A stretch of 64,000 bases of DNA from Tillus elongatus (Eukaryota; Arthropoda; Insecta; Coleoptera; Cleridae): assembly GCA_964006375.1 (NCBI GenBank), contig OZ023262.1:90589654-90653653 (forward strand), read 5' to 3'. The translations under genes were made by a program, and so were the position numbers. The notes under the pieces were generated by a model. It had not been told where the DNA came from and did no database searches. It was given only the letters and a program-made list of their open reading frames with translations. Shown one piece after another: positions 2,837 to 56,869 of this stretch; within the stretch, counting starts at the first letter, position 1; each line of letters opens with the position of its first letter.

Positions 2837-3337
2837 ACCGATAACTCACGAGATAACGGGCCCATTTTGATCAAATTGGCTAAGTACCTTCCTTTTGTAA
2901 GTGGCTTGGATGCGTTCGTTAGCCAGGAAAATTGGCCCCGATTTATACGGAAAATTTTGCGTTGTCTTTTCGGGAAAAATGTATATCTCCGGAAATAACA
3001 AAGTAGTGTTTGTATTATAAAGGGTGAACCATTTACCAAAATTTGGGTCTGAATGTTTAAAGACGAAAATGTTATAGGAATTTAAAGAAAAAAAAATCGT
3101 TTTCCTCAAAACGTCAAAGTCGCGATTTGAAAGGTTACAATTGGCAACATCTAGGCAAAGAACCTGAAAGACATACAGATTATGTAAAGAGTGTTCTGCA
3201 AACCCTTCAAGTTCAGATTCAGCCATCATTGCCCTTCATTATACTAAAATATTTCCAGAAAATTTATTTCAACTAGAGCCTTTCTCTGATGCTTTGGCAG
3301 TAGTTAAGTTCATGGTTTAACGGTCTATAATTTTTAG
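2650..3337 (+). repeat. R-family copy with internal (TA)n
   Basis: 5' palindrome GATTTTCGTAACAAAATTCAC, then GAGGAGATGCCGACTTTTGA, GCGCGAACTGGGCCCCCAGA, (TA)n at 2765-2833, ATCACACCGATAACTCA, and the recurring body 'gttagccaggaaaattgg'. The hairpin end is missing. Apparent ORFs through the microsatellite (poly Ile-Tyr) are artefacts. Confidence 0.7.
2765..2833. repeat. (TA)n microsatellite
   Basis: Perfect dinucleotide tract inside an R-family copy. Confidence 0.99.
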
Positions 3338-3600
3338 CTAATTTTCGTAGAAAAAATTCGTTAATGAGGAGACCGCGAATTTTTAATACTAAAAAGATTT
3401 ATTCGAATGAGCGCAAACTAGGCCTCCTAGATTCCATATCCGGGTTTACTTTCTGTTTGCATATATACAGGATGACACATTCCCACGGTAAAGCTCAATG
3501 TAATTGTTATTATGCAAGAAACGAGAAAAAATTGTATACGTTACTCGTAAGGTGTCTTGAGCTGCATCTTATAAACTAATTTTGACAATCAAAGTGTGGC
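3338..3600 (+). repeat. R-family 5' module, second copy
   Basis: Begins with the palindrome AATTTTCGTAGAAAAAATTC, then GAGGAGACCGCGAATTTT and a truncated core. Here 'catatatacaggatgacaca' replaces the (TA)n, which suggests a pre-expansion state. Confidence 0.6.
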
Positions 3601-3699
3601 CCATAAGTCGTTGGTGTTACCTACAAATTTTTTTTGAACTTTCCTTATTTCATTTGTGGATTTTTCATCGAAATATGATGCATGTTTGTAAAAAAAGAT

Positions 3700-7543: not shown

Positions 7544-9158
7544 AGGGGTACATTTATGTTTTGACATAAAACTCAACTTTGTCACATCAACCCCTTAAGT
7601 GTGGTGATAATAACCCTTATATTTTAAATAGTGAACATGGGTCGAGTGTTACATCATTTGAAAGCTCTTTATTTTTGGAATTCAGCACACTAATTTTTTT
7701 GGAAATTTTATCAACTTGTTTAAAAGTTATTCACAGTTGAAAATGCAAAAACGCATTTCATTCATTCCGATAAGAAATGTGCTGATAGTCAATGTTTTGT
7801 TGGTTTGTAAACAAACAATTTACTATCAGAACATTTCTTATCGGAATAAGAGAAATTGGGTTTATTATTTCAGTTTATCGGTCGGTTTGATACTTGATAG
7901 TACTATCGAAAATTAATTTCACAATAGTGTATTCTGTAGAAGAAAGAGTTGAAATAATGACTCTTTTTTTCAATAACGATGACTGTGCCAACCGTACCGC
8001 AAATTTATTTAATGAACGACATCCGAACAGACATGTTAACAGAAAATACATTTTGGAGTTAGTTGAAAAGTTTCGACAAAGCGGTTCAGTAGCCAACAAA
8101 AAACGGGATCGTGAACGTGAATTTCCGGTTAGAAATGAGATTACTGAGATTGAAGTTTTAGGACAAATTGCTGCAGACCCAACTTTGAGCACGAGAAAAT
8201 TGGCCACTGTTTCAAACATCAAAAGAAGAGCTATTCAGCGAATATTGAAGCATCATAAATTTCACCCGTATAAAATTCATCTTGTACAACAACTGAATGA
8301 AGATGATTTTGATCGGCGGCTGGAGTTTTGTGAAGTTATGACTGCACGAATAGCTGATAACGGGAACTTTCTGTTCAATATATGTTTTTCAGACGAGTGT
8401 AGGTTTTTATTAAACTCTACATTCAAGCGTCATAATTGTCGTTATTGGGCAAATAATAATCCAAGAAATTTTCACGAAGTCCACACTCAAACTCCACAGA
8501 AATCGAATGTCTGGACGTATTTGGAGTTATTATAAAATATCGTTTACCCTCTACTAATTGACATTGTTGAAAATGATGATCAATATCAAGAAAAGGAATT
8601 AGTGTTTCAACAAGATGGAGCTCCTCCGCGTTTTTCGCAACGTGATAGGGAGTTTTTGAACAAAGAGTTTCCGGGACAATGGATTGGGCGTAGAGGTGCT
8701 ATTGAGTGGCCCCCTAGATCACCGGATTTAACTCTTTTAGGCTTCTTTCTATGGGGTCATTTAAAGAGTAGAATTTACGCGACAGAACTGGAGTCACTGA
8801 AAGAATTACGACGACGCATTGTTGAAGAATGCCGTCTAATAACTCCACAAATGCTCCAGAATGCCAGAGCTCGTTTTGAACAAAATTTGTACTTTTGTAT
8901 GGAAGCTGGTGGTGAACAATTTGAACTCTTACTTAACTGAATAAACATTTTTGAACGTTTGGTTTTGTTATTTAGTATTTATTTAACGAAAAATTGACTA
9001 ATTAGTGCATTTCTTATCACAATGAATGAAATACGTTCTTGCAACTCCAATTGTGAATAATTTTTAAACGAGTTGATAGAACTTCAAAAAAAAATGAGTG
9101 TGCTGAATTCATAAAAGAAAGAGCTTTCAAATGATGTAACACTCGACCCATGTTCCCA
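7541..9158 (+). mobile_element. Mariner-like element, copy A (family M1)
   Basis: Holds the long left inverted repeat (GACATAAAACTCAACTTTG, CATCAACCCCTTAAG, AACATGGGTCGAGTG), an internal hairpin around 7771-7853 (ATTCCGATAAGAAATG ... CATTTCTTATCGGAAT), the transposase remnant 7924-8940 and the start of the right inverted repeat. The right repeat breaks off at CTCGACCCATGTTCCC, where copy B begins in opposite orientation. Complete copy D shows the full element is about 1.9 kb. Confidence 0.85.
7924..8940 (+). pseudogene. Mariner/Tc1-superfamily transposase, family M1 copy A (defective)
   Basis: A cut-and-paste DNA transposase. The N-terminal HTH looks like the DUF4817 type (YSVEERVEIM, FNERHPNRHVNRKYILELV, FRQSGSV), followed by a second HTH (LSTRKLATVSNIKRRAIQRI). 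The catalytic domain has FSDEC (first Asp), FQQDGAPP (second Asp) and WPPRSPDL (third Asp), with 36 residues between the last two by my count. Defects against copies C and D: the initiator is ATA (7924-7926) instead of ATG; 63 bp are deleted in frame after 8516 (loss of about 21 residues); and GAA became TAA at 8533-8535. Apart from these the frame is open to the stop at 8940, so the copy is recently dead. Confidence 0.85.
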
Positions 9159-26630: not shown

Positions 26631-27487
26631 TATGAAGATTTGTAAAAATTTCTTTTTCAAAAATCCACCGTTTTTTTTACAGAAATTGTTACACTAAATT
26701 ATATTTTTCACAAATATGCGACAACTTTTTTTTACAATAACTTACGAAACATTTATATTAATTACCAACATATCACAAAGATCTTACAAAAAATGATTTC
26801 TACGGAAACACTAAAAACATTTCTGTGAAAACTTTCAAATTTAGCCACTATTTGAGATTGCCTGTATACGTTACTTCGATTTTTGCAACGAGTAATAGAG
26901 ACAAAAAGCTCTCTGAATGCGTTTTGTGGAGCTCCGCTATCTATTGGTAAAAAGGTATCACAATTTGTGGTATGTGCCAAAAACGAGAAAGTTGCAAAAC
27001 AATTGAAATAACTCAAAAACGGTGAACGATATCATTTTTTTACCTTACAAACAATAATAATAATTTGGTGGAAAATACAAAAATGCAATAACATAAGGGG
27101 TGTTCTATTATAAAAAGAAAATGTGTATCAGCAACGACTTATGGGCTTATGTGATTGTCAAAATAAGTTTATAAGATGCAGCTTGAAACACACTATAATT
27201 AACGTATATAATTTTTTCTCATATCTTGCATAATATTGAGCTTTACCGTAGAAATGCGTCATCCTGTATATGTGTAAACAGACAAAACTGAAACTGACCA
27301 CGTATATGGGTTTTAAGGGTGCTAGTTCTCGCTCATTTGAAGAAATCGTTTTAAAATTCCTAAGTCGCGATCTTCTCAAGAACGAATTTTTTCTACGAAA
27401 ATTTCCTAAAATATAGAGTGTTAAACCATAAACTCTATGGGTGAAACTACTGGCAACGTATCAGAAAGAGGGTCGTCTTGAAATCGA
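26631..27487. repeat. R-family-like body sequence, no gene
   Basis: Pieces shared with 3460-3600 and 40190-40300 (GAGCTTTACCGTAGAAATGC, GCAACGACTTATGGG) and a 5' module on minus at 27290-27420. The 84-codon minus ORF at 26762-27016 has no recognisable motif. Confidence 0.5.
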
Positions 27488-35746: not shown

Positions 35747-35750
35747 ATAT

Positions 35751-35780
35751 CGTCGCTCAGAAGTCAAAACCTCGTATCTC
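35751..35780 (+). repeat. Left terminal inverted repeat (30 bp)
   Basis: Exact reverse complement of 39311-39340. Inner ten bases are CTCGTATCTC. Confidence 0.97.
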
Positions 35781-36319
35781 TAAATTTGTAGTTTTCCAGA
35801 AAACAGCAAAAACTCCCCTAGCAAAGTAAAAATATGTAATTGTGGGTTATTTTTGAACATTTATGTATTATAACTGATTTCAATTTTGTATGAAAGTGGA
35901 TTGTGCACTACTGCCTTTCTTTTTTTTATATGGAAGAAAAAATGCGAGATACGAGATTTTTGGTTGCAATCGATACTATTATTATATTGAGTTACGTGAT
36001 TATGTTACTAAATATTAGTATTTAAAAACACAATTTACTTAAGATTTATTCTGGTTAATACAACACAAATAATACATAATACGTATTGAAATGGGAGATT
36101 ATATCAATCCTAAAAAATAGTACAAAAAACAAAATAAATGGAATATTATTTTAACTAACAGGTTCTTGTTGATCTCTGAGTATTATGATAAAGTAACTTA
36201 CATGAATAAAAAAGTTCAAACCAGGCAAATAAAACTCTTAAAAAACAGGGTTTAGACTTAAGTTTTCTCTCTAAACTCTAACTTTGGTATAGTTCATTGG
36301 AAATTAGAGATGATGCTGT

Positions 36320-39064
36320 TCAATGGCGCAACGAATCATAAAAACCGTGATAGTCTTCATGGATAACTGACTTGAGAGACTGTAAGTGGTTAAACTTGTC
36401 ACCCTTTAAAGGTAGGGGGGAGTCATAAAGTTTTTTTATCTCTCCAGTTGAAGTGGATGCACGAGAGGGTAAAGGCTGCCAGTCTTCATCGAAAGTCAAT
36501 TTGTAATGGGCTGGAAGTTCTTTGGAATACTTTAAAGCTCTTAGATCGGTCACGCATGGGTCTGAAACTTTTTTGCCAGGACGAATCGAAGAATAGTACT
36601 TAATATTCGAATGATCTTTGAAAAATGTATGATTTATATACTTTACTTTGTAGGGACCTTTTTGTGAATCCTTTCGGGCATCAGTAATTATTTGAACAAA
36701 ATTTGAAGGTGAATAAATGCATTTATTCTTTTTCATTCGTTCAATAGTAGAATGTACAATGTCACACTCCATTTGCGAGTGTCCTTTAACAAGGTACTTT
36801 TGAATAATAATAGTGTCGTTTAAGATTGCATAGTACTGTAACGCATTAGCCAAAGTAACATTACGATTTTGTGCGGAACAACCGTCACTATAAAAAATTT
36901 TGGTTTTGGACTTTTCAGTCTCATCCAATTCTTCGGACATAAAATCTGTTAAACAAGAAGCAAAGCAGTTACTATCCATCCCTCCTTCGCCCTCATGCCA
37001 AACGTAGCATACAACTTTGTCATTGCCCAAATTGTAAATAGTAAAATTATGTACTGCTAATTTTTGCTTAAAATACACCATTCCTGCAGGTACATGGGGA
37101 ACAAGTTGGACTGCCTGCACATCTACAGTGAAGACACATACTTCTCCAGCCAAAGCTCTTTCTTTGTCAACATTTTTCTCTCTTCGTGCCCGATCTTTCT
37201 GATTAATATGCTGTGTGTATGTTTCCAAAGTTACATTTCCTAATTTTTGTGAGAAACATAGATCACATTGATCTTTTCGAGGATGAAAAATGTCTATATT
37301 GAGATTTTTCATTTCCGAAAGGAATACATCATACCCTGTGGCATCTTCTGGAACAACTTCATTTTTATAAAATTTGTACACTTCACTATATGACTGAAAA
37401 ATTGATTCCAGATACAGCTTGTTAGTTGAAGATCGACAGTAGTGAGAAGGCATTTTAGGAAGACGCTGGAAAAATTCCTTAATTTTAAGTCTTTTTTCGG
37501 AATTAATTGTTCTAGATTTATTTGGAAATTTTGTAGTGTTTTGCACTATACCAGAATCTGAGCTATTTTTTACCCAGTTAAGTACGCTCCACTCTCCTAC
37601 ATTCAAAGTAGCCAGAAACATTTTTTTACAGACGGGTACAAGAGAATTCTCTACTTTCAAGTGGTAAGACAAACTTACACCACGTCGAGATTTTGTTTTG
37701 GTAGTTTTCTCTTTAGTTGCACTTTTGTTGACTAAAGTAGCTACAAAGATCTTCCTTTGCCTCCAGTCCATATGAGCCCAAAACTCTTCAAATATGCGTT
37801 TTCTCTGTTCTTCAGTAATTCTAGAGCACTGCCTTTTTTCTTTAGATTTCAAGCACCTCGATGAATTACATCTTGGCCCCATTTCTCTTGGACTTTTCTT
37901 CAGATTAACGACTGTCCCATTTTTTTCAATCTTTTTTGTATCATATTCCGTTCCTTTCATTCTCATTAATTTAGAAACATTTCTTTTCCATAAGGAAGTT
38001 TCTGAATGGCCCTTTTTCTTTCGTATAACTTCTGCTAGCGATTTATCCGCATCAACGACAATCGTTGGTTGTTGCGAACGTTGACGTTTCTTGCTTTTTC
38101 TTCTTTCTTGAATTTCATTCTCTGAGTCTGATGAGATGTCTGTGGGGTGGCAACTGGAACCAGAATCTTCAAATGGGTCTGGGATGCATGTGTCCGGGAT
38201 ACTAATATCATCTTCGTCATTTTTTGTTTTGCTTCTTTCTGGTGTAGACTTTCCAAAAGTAGAGCTGCTAGGTATTGTAGACACTGTTGGAATGCTCACA
38301 TTATCTAATGCAGAGTAAGATGAGCTATGGCATTCGTTGTTCATCGGAACGTCATTTCTTGTGTTGTGATTGTGAACATGAGTTGCATATTCTAATTCTG
38401 CTTGGCGAAGAGCCATTTCCAGTATTTTATAAGAACGTGTTGTCTAGAAAAAAAAAACCCGACTCAGTACTTCATGTACTCATAATTCAGAATAATCTCA
38501 CAAAATATAGGACATAGGTAGATTAAATTATTCAACCTACACTACTTGCAGTGTTTAATTTTTCATTAATATGATATTATTCTTAAGTTCAGTAGATACG
38601 AAAATTAATTCCTAGAACGCAGAACGATCGAATCTCCTTACATAAAAATATCTGAATTTATTTCCATATAGGTATCACTGTATTTCTTTATTTTAGAACA
38701 GTATACAGATATTTAATTTTTATTTATAATAATATATAAAGTGAGAAAATTAAAAAAATCTCGGCAAAAACCTCGTATCTTTAATCAAAACAATAGCAGA
38801 CCAACTATACGAAAACCTCGTAACTCATAGCTTAAGAAAATAGGTCTTACAACACATTTTACTACGTCAAACAGGCATATTATGATTTATTATTGCTATT
38901 CTCATACTTAGTAAGTAACCAGAGATTGAGTGAAACCTTACATTTCAATTCATAACCTCACTTTTTAAAGGAAAGCCGGATAGTAAATTTAAAGAAATAC
39001 CTACATTTATTTAATAATGATTATCATGTAAATCTTAGGTAGACTAATATAATGTACTTACCAT
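36320..39064 (-). CDS. Transposase of the DUF7869-like insect family, two exons, intact
   Basis: Exon 2 is 38443-36320 (stop TGA/TAA side at 36320). A first exon ending in ATG at 39064-39062, directly followed by the donor GTAAGT, joins a strong acceptor TTTTTTTTCTAG (AG 38445-38444). Joining is in frame and adds MTTRSYKILE before the internal ATG at 38416, for about 708 residues (numbering below from 38416). Seen: a Ser/Asp-rich N terminus with a basic patch RRKSKKRQR (105-113), Cys183/188/197, HPRKDQCDLC with Cys384/387, and an RNase H-like block FTVDVQAVQL (Asp432), FYSDGCSAQN (Asp511), KGHSQMECDIVHSTIER (Glu550 or Glu559), then YYSSIRPGKKVSDPCVTDLR. This spacing suits a DDE nuclease. Similar proteins are common, mostly unannotated, in insect genomes; I believe Pfam calls the core DUF7869. 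No disabling change seen. Confidence 0.8.
38444..39061 (-). other. Intron of the DUF7869-like transposase gene (predicted)
   Basis: 618 bp from donor GTAAGT at 39061 to a polypyrimidine tract plus AG at 38444. It contains two of the subterminal CTCGTATCT/CTCGTAACTC motifs (38772, 38815), so regulatory or transposase-binding sites lie inside the intron. Confidence 0.6.
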
Positions 39065-39310
39065 TGTGGATATTCACACCATAAAACACGAAGGATAACC
39101 ATGAAAATAAAAACAAATTAATACCAACAACAGGTTGATTCCCGCCGAGCAGCAAGATACGAGGTTATAGAACAAAAATTGAGATACGAGTTTTTGAAAT
39201 GAATGCAGCGCATGCTCTCTGCTGCGGCTATAAACACACGAGGTTTTGCGACAGATGCGCCATAATATATATGTAATGTTGAAGCTCGTAACTCGAAATC
39301 GTGAAAAATC

Positions 39311-39340
39311 GAGATACGAGGTTTTGACTTCTGAGCGACG
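39311..39340 (-). repeat. Right terminal inverted repeat (30 bp)
   Basis: Exact match to the left end. The inner GAGATACGAG is preceded by further copies at 39181 and 39155. Confidence 0.97.
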
Positions 39341-39344
39341 ATAT

Positions 39345-49496: not shown

Positions 49497-49838
49497 TATT
49501 ATTATTATTATTACCTTTATTGTTAAAAATTATACAACATGTTTATTCAATAAGTCTAAGACTTGTGGTAAATATTAACATAATTTTATACATAGTTGCA
49601 TCCAAAACTGCTTCACAACACTCCAAATTCAACAACCTTAAAATTTTGACATTCCAAAAAATTTCTTTCCTGTTCCACTTCGTTCTTCTAATGATTCACC
49701 TGATACCTCTATTTACAATAAATACCAATCACTCTATAATACTTTTCCAACTGCAAACCTTTCTCAACTACCCATATTTTTTCCGAAATTGTAAATTTTG
49801 TACGAGACCAAAAATGACATTTTAATTTGACAGTTACT
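49497..49838. other. Insertion in the M2 left inverted repeat
   Basis: Breaks the otherwise collinear match to 51310-51330. Starts with (TTA)n at 49497. No recognisable ends or target duplication, so either an insertion in this arm or a loss from the other. Confidence 0.55.
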
Positions 49839-49998
49839 TACTCAGATCAATGTCACATAAATTTACAGAGTGGTTATTATTTGCTGAAAAATCAAGTACG
49901 TGGTAGGCTGTCAAATAATGTCACAATTACACTAATATTAATTGTTCTGGTTGTTGTCGATCTATCGAGAATTTTTTAAACACAAATAAGTGAATAAA

Positions 49999-51069
49999 AT
50001 GGTAAATTATACCAATTCCGAAATGGTGGAGATGCATTTATAATATGGCCGCGTTAATGGCAATGGATTGAGAACACAGCGCCTCTACACTGAGTTATAT
50101 CCAAATAGAACTGTACCCCATTACAGCATATTCGCACGCATTCATCAACGTCTGCAAGAAGGAAAATTTTCAAGAAGTGCCGCCGATTGCAAGCGTTCTA
50201 GAGAAGTAAGAACTGTAGCACTTGAAGAGGCTGTCCTCAATTTAATTGAAGAATCTCCTGGTACAAGTACAAGAAGAATCGCTCAAGTTTTAAATGTCAG
50301 CTATTCCACGGTATTTAAAATTTTAAAAGAACAACTGATGTATCACTCCCATATCCAACGAGTTCAAGCGCTCTTACCTCGTGATTTTTTACCTCGTTTA
50401 ATTTTTTTACAATGCATGCTTCTAATGGTCACGCAAATTCCACAGTTCTTATCTCGTATTTTATTTACTGATGAGGCCAAATTTTCAAGAGAATCTATTA
50501 GAAATTTTCATAATAACCATATATGGTCTGAAGAAAACCCACACGAAATTACGGAATCTCATTTTCAACACCAGTTTTCATTAAATATATGGCTTCCTGT
50601 CATTGATGATGACTTAATTGTACCATATTTTCCTCCGATAAGACTAAATGGAGAAGTGTACTGTCATATACTCAAAGAAGAGTTGCCCATACTTCTTGAA
50701 AATATTCCTTTACAAATTAGACAACAAATGTGGTACATGCACGACGGGGCTCCGGCTCATTTTAGTATCAACGCTCGTAGCTACTTGAACGAAGTTTACC
50801 CAAATCGTTGGATAGGTCGTGGAGGCCCACAAAATTGGCCTGCCCGATCTCCTGAATTGAATCTGTTGGATTTTTGCCTGTGGGGTTTTCTGAAAACCTT
50901 AGTTTATTCAAGTCCTGTTGAAAACATCGATGACCTCAGAAATCGTATTATCGCATCATGTGATATAAGAAACACACCCGGTATTTTTCATAGAATACGA
51001 AGTTCAATAAGAAACAGACTAGAGTCATGCGTTCTCTCCGAAGGGGGGCATTTTCAACATTTATTATGA
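49999..51069 (+). pseudogene. M2 mariner-like transposase, intact except one nonsense codon
   Basis: ATG at 49999 gives MVNYTNSEMVEMHL, then TAA (50041-50043), then YGRVNGNGLRTQRLYTELYP, NRTVPHYSIFARIHQRLQEG. This is a DUF4817-type HTH with the stop at codon 15. From there 342 codons are open: second HTH TSTRRIAQVLNVSYSTVFKI, first Asp in FTDEAKFSR, second in YMHDGAPAHFS, third position WPARSPELNLLDFCLWGFLK. The third residue is Glu where the sister family M1 has Asp, with 36 residues between by my count. Length (about 356 codons) fits a full mariner transposase. A TTG or downstream start could still give an N-terminally cut protein, but the first HTH helix would be lost. Confidence 0.85.
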
Positions 51070-51628
51070 TGATACGTACTGACATTTTGTTAATATTTCT
51101 TTTTTTTTTTCTTAGTTTGTTAATTATAAATTATAAAATAGTAGTACAATAGTAGTTGTTTCTTATTATGAATTTTTGGAAATTAGTAAAAGCCAGAACA
51201 ATACATATTAACATATTAGTGTAATTATGACGTTATTTGACAGCCTACCACGTACCTGATTTTTCAGCAAATAACAACCACTCTGTAAATTCATGTGACA
51301 TCAATCTGGGTAATGTTTTATTTTTTTGTGATGAAACTAACAATTTTATGAGAAAATGTCAAGATATAAAAAAGTTGCTAAATGAATCCTTCTTTCTAAA
51401 TCATTTTCTTAAATAGAAAACGGTACACACAATAAAAAGTACTGATAAAAAAGAATGTAAGGGTAGGTTTTTTCACCCTCTTGTATAGGGTTACCAAATC
51501 CATTTAAAACTGTCATCTTGTTAGCCTTATGCTTCTGCAAAATTTCTTTTTTTAAATTATTTCATAACAGAGAAATGTAACGAAAAACTTATTTTTTACA
51601 AAATTTTTCGCATTAATTTGGAGACACC

Positions 51629-53764: not shown

Positions 53765-56700
53765 GTGTAGATGAAGTTCCAACGGCTTCCACAGTGCGGT
53801 GCAGAAGGGAAACAGAAGTCCCACTACACTATCATTCCATTTATTCAACATGGCTGAAACAAATATAAACATGGCCCTCAGTCCGGGATACCCCTTAAGC
53901 GGGGAGAGGGTGCGAAGAATCCCCCCGTCCATGAAAACCACAGAATACAAATATATAGAAAACAAACCAGAACTGCAACGTGGAATATACGTAGCCTATG
54001 TATGTCGGGAAAACTCGCCAATGTAGATGCAGAAATGTATAGATTGGGAGTCAAGATCTTGGGGCTAAGCGAGGTACGATGGCCAGGCACTGGGAATCAC
54101 AAGACTAAAAATGGCGTTCTCTACTACTCTGGTGGCGACGACCACAAACACCAATACGGCGTAGCTATACTCATCTCCTCTGAACTAGAAAAATCGGTAA
54201 TTGGTATTTATCCCACTCGGAGATCGAGTGATGCTCTTGAGACTCCTCACTACTCATAGAGTTATGAACGTAATTCGAGCGTACGCTCCAACAGGGGACA
54301 AACCTGATGAGGCGGTTGAAGAATTCTACTCTGCTTTAGAAGAAGCTATGAAAACAACAAAACAAGGGGAGATGACAATTGTTCCTGGCGACTTTAACGC
54401 CAAAATCGGGAAGGGCGCTGATGGCGGGGTCTGCGGAGATCATGGTCTGGGAACATGCAACACTAGAGGGGATCGTCTGGTGCAATTTTGTACAGAGCAC
54501 CGCCTCTCTGCTGCCAACACCTACTTCAAGCAACATCCTAGACGTCTATACACGTGGAAATCCCCAGCAGATCGTGATAACCACATAGTGAGAAATCAGA
54601 TCGATTTTATCCTCATTAAGAGCCATTTAATGAAGTTTGTCAAATCAGCAACAACATACCCTGGCGCCGACGTCAACAGCGACCACAATCCCGTAGTAAT
54701 AAGTCTACAGCTTCGCCACTTCAATAGAGTCCAACGTCCAAATAAACCTAAGCGAGTCGATGTCAGAAGACTTCTTGATCCCGAGATACGAGCCAGAGCA
54801 GCCGAGAGTCTCGAGGCGCGTCTACAAACAACTAACTCTTGCAATGACAACGACGTAGAGCCTCGGTGGACTGTTTTGAAGAAGGCACTTTTGAAAACCC
54901 AGGAGGATGACATTGGATATGCACAAGCCTTTAAAAAGCAACAGTGGATGACAGACGAAATTCTCCAACTTATGAACGAGAGAAGGAAATACAAGGCCAC
55001 AGACAATAACCGATACAAGGAGCTGAACAGGGCGGTGAGATGGGAATGCAGAAAAGCAAGGGAAGGATGGCTAGCTGAAAAATGTAGTGAAATGGAGACA
55101 CTAGAAAAAAAGCACGACTCGTTTAATCTCCACAAAAAGATCAAGGAATTCACAAACACACAACGCAGGCAGATCCACGGTATTTTGAAGGACACTAACA
55201 ACAAGATCTTAACAAGCGTTGAGGAAAAGCTTAAAAGATGGAAGGGGTATGTTGAGGCCCTCTTCAATGACACACGACCCCACCAACCACCTAGGAACTA
55301 TGATGATATCAACGAACCCAGCCCTGCTATCACGGCAGAGGAAGTGAGACGTGCTATAAAACTTCAGAAAAATGACAAGGCTGTAGGACCAGACAATATT
55401 CACGCCGAAACCTTGAAATTGTTCGTCAGTGCAGATGATGGAGGCCTAAAACTTCTTACATCGTTGTTCAACTCAATATATGAAACTGGGAAAATACCAA
55501 CGGACTGGCTGAGGTCGACGCTCATCGCTCTGCCAAAGAAACCAAACGCTTCTCAATGCGACGACCACCGAATGATAAGCCTGATGTCTCACGTCTTCAA
55601 GGCCTCAAGGTGTTTCTTCGCATTGTTCACACTCGCATATACGCCAGATGTGAGGAACAGGCTGGGGAGACGCAGTTTGGATTTAAGAACGGAATGGGCA
55701 CGCGCGAGCCTCTCTTCTCTCTCAACGTTCTCACACAGCGATGCCGATACATGAATGTTGTTATATACGCCTGCTTTATTGACTACCGAAAAGCTTTCGA
55801 CTGTGTCTCGCACCAGAAGCTCATTGAGATCCTAAAATACACCGGAGTCGATGCGGGAGATCTGAACATCATCACGCAGCTGTACTGGCATCAGACTGCG
55901 GAGATTAGGATAGAGGGCATAACATCCGAAGAAACAAAAATCAGAAGGAGTGTTAGACAAGGATGTGTCCTGTCCCCTCTACTCTTCAACATATACTCGG
56001 GGGTGGTGTTCCGGGAGGCACTGGAGAATGTGAAAGAGGGCGTTAAAATCAACGGCACCCTTATTAATAATATACGATTCGCCGACGATACGGTCGTGGT
56101 CGCCGACAGCCTACCACATCTCCAGAATATGATGGATGATCGTTGAGCATATCACACGGTATGGTTTACACATAAACGTTGCCAAGACCAAGGTGGTTGT
56201 GTTCTACAGGGCACCAAGAGGGGCGATCCTTCAAATTAACAACCAGGTTGTGGAACAGGTGCCGTCCGTTAAATACCTTGGAGCCCTCGTCAACGAGAAC
56301 AGTGACCCTAAAATGGAAATCAGATTAAGGATAGAACAGACCAGAAGGACATTTATCTCCATGAAGAAACTCTTCACCAGTAGAGACCTAAACCTACAGC
56401 TTCGCATACGTATATTGCGCTGTTATATCTTCCCAGTGCTACTCTATGGCTCCGAGAGCTGGACATTCTGCCAATCAATGGAGAGCCGCATTGACGCCTT
56501 TGAGATGTACTGGTATCGCCGTATACTGCGTATATCCTGGGTAGACAGGATAACCAACGAGGAAGTGCTAAGGAGAATAGGTAAAGGCAAAGAACTGCTG
56601 ACAACCATCAAAGAACGAAAGCTCCAATACATCGGGCACATTATGAGGGGGGAGCGGTACGAGCTCCTCCGACTCCTGATCGAAGGAAAGATCGAGGGCA

Positions 56701-56869
56701 AACGATCTGTGAGCAGACGGCAGAACTCATGGCTGAAAGATCTGCGTCGATGTTTCGGACGGACATCTGTGGAGATTTTCAGAGGTGCGGTATCACGCAC
56801 CATTATAGCCAGTTGGATCGCCAACCTTCGTAGGGAGACTGCGTCTTAAGAAGAAGAAGTGTAGATGAA
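53765..56869 (+). mobile_element. RTE-clade LINE, near full length, with 11-bp target duplication
   Basis: GTGTAGATGAA occurs at 53765-53775 and 56859-56869, flanking the element 53776-56858 (3.08 kb). It ends in AAGAAGAAGAA, the short simple-repeat 3' end typical of RTE/BovB-type elements instead of poly(A). The interior is one damaged ORF. GC content is much higher than the surroundings. Confidence 0.9.
53970..56849 (+). pseudogene. RTE LINE endonuclease-reverse transcriptase, frameshifted
   Basis: The polyprotein copies its RNA at a nicked target. Endonuclease: TATWNIRSLCMSGKLANVDA, ILGLSEVRWPGTG, then after a shift near 54210 NVIRAYAPTGD, VPGDFNAKIG, IDFILIK and the catalytic His in NSDHNPVV. 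RT: KAVGPDNIHAETLKLF, WLRSTLIALPKKPNASQCDD, then after a shift near 55600 YACFIDYRKAFDCVSHQKLI, RRSVRQGCVLSPLLFN, catalytic RFADDTVVVAD; a third shift near 56140 leads to TKVVVFYRAPRG, CYIFPVLLYGSESW and the RTE-type tail YWYRRILRISWVDRITNEEV, RKLQYIGHIMRG. Three +/-1 shifts plus a damaged 5' start are the visible lesions; no internal stops within blocks. Known RTE elements are about 3.2 kb, so little is missing. Confidence 0.9.

Follow-up and report, generated by a model that had tools for sequence, protein, structure and literature searches.

The locus considered here raises two questions: whether it is a complete DNA transposon that carries its own transposase gene and, if so, to which kind of transposon it belongs. 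The preliminary description of the window (the whole 64-kb stretch of DNA analyzed) had proposed a transposon, and its ends, 4-bp duplications, genomic copies, and predicted RNase H-like core now agree with that reading. We are highly confident that it is a complete, probably autonomous DDE/D DNA transposon with a DUF7869-like transposase. The element is of a known kind and very young, and it gives DUF7869-like proteins a predicted function.

Boundaries and Ends of the Element

The element proper occupies 35751-39340 of the 64-kb window and is 3,590 bp long; the interval first given for it, 35747..39344, does contain the element and includes in addition the target duplications on either side. 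The perfect 30-bp terminal inverted repeats already reported are CGTCGCTCAGAAGTCAAAACCTCGTATCTC at 35751-35780 and 39311-39340. When up to three mismatches are allowed, the first 21 bases of this repeat are found in the 64 kb at the element's two ends only, and in none of 100 shuffles. The many internal copies claimed for a "terminal decamer" proved to be something else: what recurs is the half of the inverted repeat that faces the interior (on one strand, GAGATACGAGGTTTT), and all eight sites in the window that match it with three mismatches or fewer lie within the element, two of them toward its left end and six toward its right. The features of the two ends are as follows, with the basis for each in parentheses.

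35747..35750, no strand: left target duplication ATAT, 4 bp (length set by other genomic copies)
35751..35780, plus strand: left terminal inverted repeat, 30 bp (repeat match, mismatch scan, shuffles)
35946..35960, plus strand: subterminal GAGATACGAGGTTTT-like site, 1 mismatch (motif scan)
38767..38826, minus strand: two subterminal motif sites, 38767-38781 and 38812-38826, 1 mismatch each (motif scan)
39154..39247, plus strand: three subterminal motif sites, 39154-39168, 39181-39195, and 39233-39247, with 2, 1, and 3 mismatches, respectively (motif scan)
39311..39340, minus strand: right terminal inverted repeat, 30 bp (repeat match, mismatch scan, shuffles)
39341..39344, no strand: right target duplication ATAT, 4 bp (window letters and other genomic copies)

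Copies in the Genome and Their Age

A search of the genome (1.72 Gb in 30 contigs) with the element protein returned at least 65 matching rows, of which 40, at no fewer than 33 coding loci, constitute the element's own family; 39 of these rows show 94-100% identity, and one fragment shows 81%. The entire protein is spanned in 19 rows, each with a 707-codon frame free of stops, and three more rows have that frame with a single stop. The terminal 24-mer, with two mismatches or fewer, matches the genome 34 times in the forward and 34 times in the reverse orientation, and its reversed control matches nowhere. As for short nonautonomous derivatives with unchanged ends, the closest facing pair seen among these 24-mer matches lies about 3.5 kb apart. 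The genomic copies whose ends were read terminate exactly where the window element does.

The 24 copies that were aligned diverge from their majority sequence by 0.03-0.25%, with a pairwise median of 0.25%, and the window copy departs from that majority through a single insertion event and 4 substitutions over 3,589 positions. Within the reading frame, the 24 copies carry 72 codon changes (54 nonsynonymous, 15 synonymous, and 3 nonsense), where random changes would be expected in fractions of 0.69, 0.27, and 0.04. Counts that look this neutral imply that copies decay after insertion; they say nothing about function. Together with the low divergence, they indicate that the spread of the family was very recent and that its copies are now drifting. 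The recent activity claimed at the outset is thus supported, in the sense of a very recent spread, by the number of coding loci, the 19 full stop-free frames, and the narrow range of divergence among the 24 copies.

Two of the copies, L012 and L013, lie about 61 kb apart on contig C7 and have identical flanks, as though the stretch had recently been duplicated in place. Extra element ends are present in one region of contig C8.

Target-Site Duplication and Empty Site

ATAT had been described outside both ends, and it is present at 35747..35750 and 39341..39344. ATAT reads the same on both strands, so the window copy by itself would allow a 4-bp duplication, a TA duplication, or inverted repeats that reach further out; it is the other genomic copies that identify a true 4-bp duplication. 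Both ends could be read at 31 of the 33 loci (24 copies, plus 7 with larger insertions between the ends); a single end was found at L036 and L041. An exact 4-bp direct repeat flanks 30 of the 31 (ATAT in 26, AAAT in 2, TTAT in 1, and AGAT in 1), the exception being L024, with ATAA at the left and ATAT at the right. Five of the ATAT cases (L011, L016, L022, L030, and L038) lie within AT repeats, where longer matches occur too. Since AAAT, TTAT, and AGAT are not palindromic, they establish both the 4-bp duplication and the CGTCG terminus; a TA duplication and a 34-bp inverted repeat, each possible from the window copy, are ruled out by the other copies. The identity of the L012 and L013 flanks leaves 30 independent sites. 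As a target, ATAT is strongly preferred.

These flanks also bear on the idea that the copies arose by segmental duplication or assembly error, without any transposition. The flanks common to L012 and L013 and the extra ends on contig C8 would suit such an origin, but the flanks listed for the other copies differ, and these copies share their terminal bases and have 4-bp repeats of their own. We consider this explanation extremely improbable.

Empty sites had also been proposed as a check, and one was found: the joined flanks of L027 match window positions 27018-27470 straight through the junction, with a single ATAT, at 82% over 477 columns. What stands empty here is a paralogous repeat copy; it is not the L027 locus as found in a second individual. 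When the flanks of L017, L023, and L033 were joined in this way, the junctions aligned less well or with gaps, L022 yielded simple repeats only, and no excision site of the element was found. The interspersed repeat that hosts copy L027 is represented by window positions 3187-3699 and 27018-27470 and by loci L018, L019, L043, and L046.

A Second Family in the Same Genome

Twenty-five of the at least 65 matching rows belong to a second DUF7869-like family, at 41-44% protein identity to the window protein, and seven of the 25 (L042-L048) were taken with their flanks. The left end of L048 is unreadable; each of the six members with both ends has an exact 4-bp duplication (ATAT in 4, AAAT in 1, and AGTA in 1). 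In L042, 3,343 bp lie between the ends, and a 31-bp inverted repeat with 28 matches begins CGTCGGCTTAC. The second-family members compared are approximately 99.5% or more alike in DNA and share the CGTCGGCTTAC ends. A CGTCG end and a 4-bp AT-rich target are therefore common to two families whose proteins are approximately 42% identical.

The Gene and a Predicted Intron

The one long undamaged gene of the preliminary description is there: an open frame of 698 aa at 36320-38416 on the minus strand, without damage. The main exon frame extends beyond it, to 707 open codons and a stop at 36320-38443 on the minus strand, and the 698 aa are counted from its first ATG, at 38416. The true start of the gene is probably in an additional upstream exon, with an intron right behind the start codon. 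An ATG at 39064-39062 directly adjoins a GTAAGT donor, and the main frame begins just after a T run ending in CTAG; the predicted splice of this ATG to 38443 would yield a protein of 708 aa beginning MTTRSYKILEMALRQ. Among 112 homologues, 22 carry a motif from that start somewhere in their first 90 residues, where 200 shuffles averaged 0.115 and never exceeded 2. Most of the 24 aligned copies have kept the intron signals: 23 have the donor, and 21 have the acceptor with all 16 bases unchanged.

36320..38443, minus strand: main exon, 707 codons and stop (open reading frame)
38444..39061, minus strand: predicted intron, GTAAGT donor to polypyrimidine-CTAG acceptor (splice signals, copies, homologues)
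39062..39064, minus strand: predicted start codon, the last codon of exon 1 (splice prediction)

It could be argued that the window copy, despite its open frame, is itself nonfunctional or is moved by the protein of another copy. The neutral-looking substitutions in the frame (54/15/3 in 24 copies) mean that no copy is visibly kept by selection. The window copy nevertheless differs from the majority by so few changes, and so fully retains its open frame, splice signals, and both ends, that we judge this quite unlikely and continue to regard the element as probably autonomous.

Relatives of the Protein

Homologue searches at E ≤ 1e-3 returned 199 proteins, 207 with a first profile, and 64 with a profile of distant members, the best 120 being listed from each of the first two. 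Organism-named homologues among the matches listed come from beetles, moths, butterflies, a planthopper, gastropods, and fish. A FastTree phylogeny built from 112 sequences places the window protein beside one other protein (support 0.96), followed by two from Callosobruchus (0.89) and one from Anthonomus (0.98), a grouping that suggests, but does not establish, a beetle host.

The description of the protein as DUF7869-like holds for its relatives and less strictly for the protein itself, which scores 18.5 bits against Pfam DUF7869 (PF25273), where the cut-off is 26. Thirty-two of the 34 aligned family members match this domain at E ≤ 0.01, and 13 of the relatives scanned singly (30 of the 33 in the alignment) pass the cut-off, P0004 and P0043 among them; P0002, the nearest relative of the window protein, gave no DUF7869 match in the single-sequence scan. 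Since the window protein falls below a cut-off that its relatives pass, it is best called a relative of DUF7869 and not a formal member. The Pfam domain, which is described as being of unknown function, spans just part of the catalytic core discussed below.

Other collections added little. No relatives were confirmed in the viral and prokaryote collections, the terminal 21-mer had no exact match in viral contigs, and NCBIfam gave one match, which is meaningless. By sequence, the window protein matched no solved structure at E ≤ 10, and the 112-sequence alignment gave six weak matches only, all to the acidic N-terminal part.

Predicted Fold and Catalytic Residues

The predicted model of the protein (pLDDT 81.2 overall) has the strands and helices of an RNase H fold in their proper order; the N-terminal 135 residues gave no usable model. 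Its best structural matches are the Metnase and Mos1 transposases and retroviral integrases. We predict with high confidence that the protein holds an RNase H-like DDE/D transposase core. The fold anticipated in the preliminary description is present in the model, with the acidic residues placed in the expected strands and helix.

The catalytic triad proposed with it (Asp432, Asp511, and Glu550 or Glu559) would need partial revision. Asp432 and Asp511 are found in 112 of 112 homologues, whereas Glu550, at 107 of 112, is the least conserved candidate; Asp552 and Glu559 are each conserved in 111 of 112, and Asp552 fits better than Glu559 does. We favor Asp552 as the third catalytic residue, with Glu559 as the alternative.

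37289..37390, minus strand: probable winged-helix part, codons 343-376 (model and weak Pfam matches of relatives)
36731..37141, minus strand: RNase H-like catalytic core, codons 426-562 (model, structure comparison, conservation in 112 homologues)
Within the core, minus strand: Asp432, 37121-37123; Asp511, 36884-36886; Asp552, 36761-36763; Glu559, 36740-36742

In the winged-helix region, the model shows helices at 343-353 and 362-371 and a strand at 374-376; weak winged-helix Pfam matches of four relatives (E 0.005-0.1), used solely in combination with the model, map to residues 340-406. Overall, the protein would consist of a disordered N-terminus, a cysteine-rich part, the probable winged-helix part, the RNase H-like core, and a conserved C-terminal part.

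The succession of strands and helices obtained from averaged Chou-Fasman propensities is compatible with the model, which supersedes it. Weak RNase_H Pfam matches, seen in 5 of the 34 members (best E 0.018), were rejected as evidence for the fold: in P0003, P0004, and P0097 they correspond to window residues 504-579 and take the strand before YSDGC as strand 1, and since that order contradicts the order in the model, they were not used. No piggyBac, hAT, or RAG chain is among the 50 VIA-align rows listed, which is no argument against any of them.

Superfamily Placement

The 4-bp AT-rich duplications lead us to favor Sola, group Sola2, as the probable home of the element. In the portion of the literature available to us, Sola elements are described as having 4-bp duplications, DDD transposases, lengths of mostly 2-9 kb, and inverted repeats of 11-1124 bp (PMC10741241), and dictyostelid Sola2 elements as having AWWT duplications, a pattern reported there from a few families, with ATAT, AAAT, and ATTT in one species (PMC3627910). 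Judged by these partial accounts, the element resembles Sola2 in its 4-bp AT-rich duplications, ATAT and AAAT included, and in its DDD or DDE/D transposase, and both its size and the length of its inverted repeats fall within the ranges given for Sola (PMC10741241). Asp432, Asp511, and Asp552 are conserved, as a DDD reading would have it, but so is Glu559. Of the duplications in the two families, 33 of 37 fit AWWT; one mismatched pair does not, and neither do TTAT and AGAT in the element's family and AGTA in the second, in which respect they are unlike Sola2 as far as it is described in that source.

Those three duplications would also suit a different placement, in which DUF7869 proteins define a superfamily of their own, apart from Sola2 and the other named superfamilies, and the 4-bp AT-rich duplications are shared by chance. 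The absence of any Pfam transposase model among the matches listed for 34 and for 16 relatives (25 of 30 families being listed in one case), and of any paper naming DUF7869 in the literature searched, would be in keeping with this. It must be set against the agreement of duplication length, target, size, and inverted-repeat length with Sola and Sola2 in the parts of the publications consulted, where DDD is also reported for Sola, as a third acid at Asp552 would give. We think a separate superfamily rather unlikely. Unlikely, too, is the proposal that DUF7869-type elements are an unnamed cut-and-paste superfamily, characterized by a DD(40)D core, CGTCG termini, and AT-rich duplications of 4 bp, with a family that is still jumping; were it true, the element would be the first active one of its kind.

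Several other superfamilies were considered and rejected. The available text of one paper gives TTAA as the duplication of piggyBac and Kolobok (PMC9587614), and TTAA is found in none of the 37 duplications; that of another gives 3 bp for Zator and 8 bp for Merlin (PMC10045372), where the element has 4 bp. The TA duplication of Tc1/mariner is contradicted by AAAT, TTAT, AGAT, and AGTA. Mos1 and Metnase, which are of the Tc1/mariner type, match the model structurally at 10% and 7% identity, but the element differs from them in its 4-bp duplication.

Proposed Mechanism and Significance

We suggest that the N-terminal and winged-helix parts of the transposase bind both the subterminal GAGATACGAGGTTTT-like sites and the inner half of each inverted repeat, and that the two element ends are brought together as a pair. 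The catalytic core, presumably through Asp432, Asp511, and Asp552 (or possibly Glu559 as the third residue), would then cut the element out at its CGTCG ends and join these, staggered by 4 bp, to AT-rich, ATAT-like DNA; repair by the host would convert the stagger into the duplication. The class of enzyme suggests cut-and-paste movement rather than copying.

The evidence indicates that some 200 DUF7869-like protein clusters from insects, molluscs, and fish would be transposases or derivatives of them. A widespread protein family of unknown function thereby gains a predicted DNA-cutting role, and many of its members, being transposases or derived from them, are best handled as mobile elements. 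With copies so little diverged and 19 intact frames, this family is a promising candidate for a functional transposon. We know of no laboratory-active member of the element's group, and the family could perhaps serve as a genetic tool that targets 4-bp, ATAT-like sites.

Other Elements in the Window

The element had been called the only coding element in the window without visible damage. A check confined to the best rival seen, a mariner-like element at 49838-51313, agrees with this to the extent that the rival has an in-frame stop. Its inverted repeats are about 101 nt long and 92% complementary, and its transposase frame is nearly open, with the one stop at approximately 50041. A broken Tc/mariner-like transposase lies at 7891-8940 in two open pieces, the first with matches to Pfam DUF4817 and HTH_Tnp_Tc3_2, and a non-LTR retrotransposon is represented at 53858-56849 by pieces that match endonuclease and reverse transcriptase.
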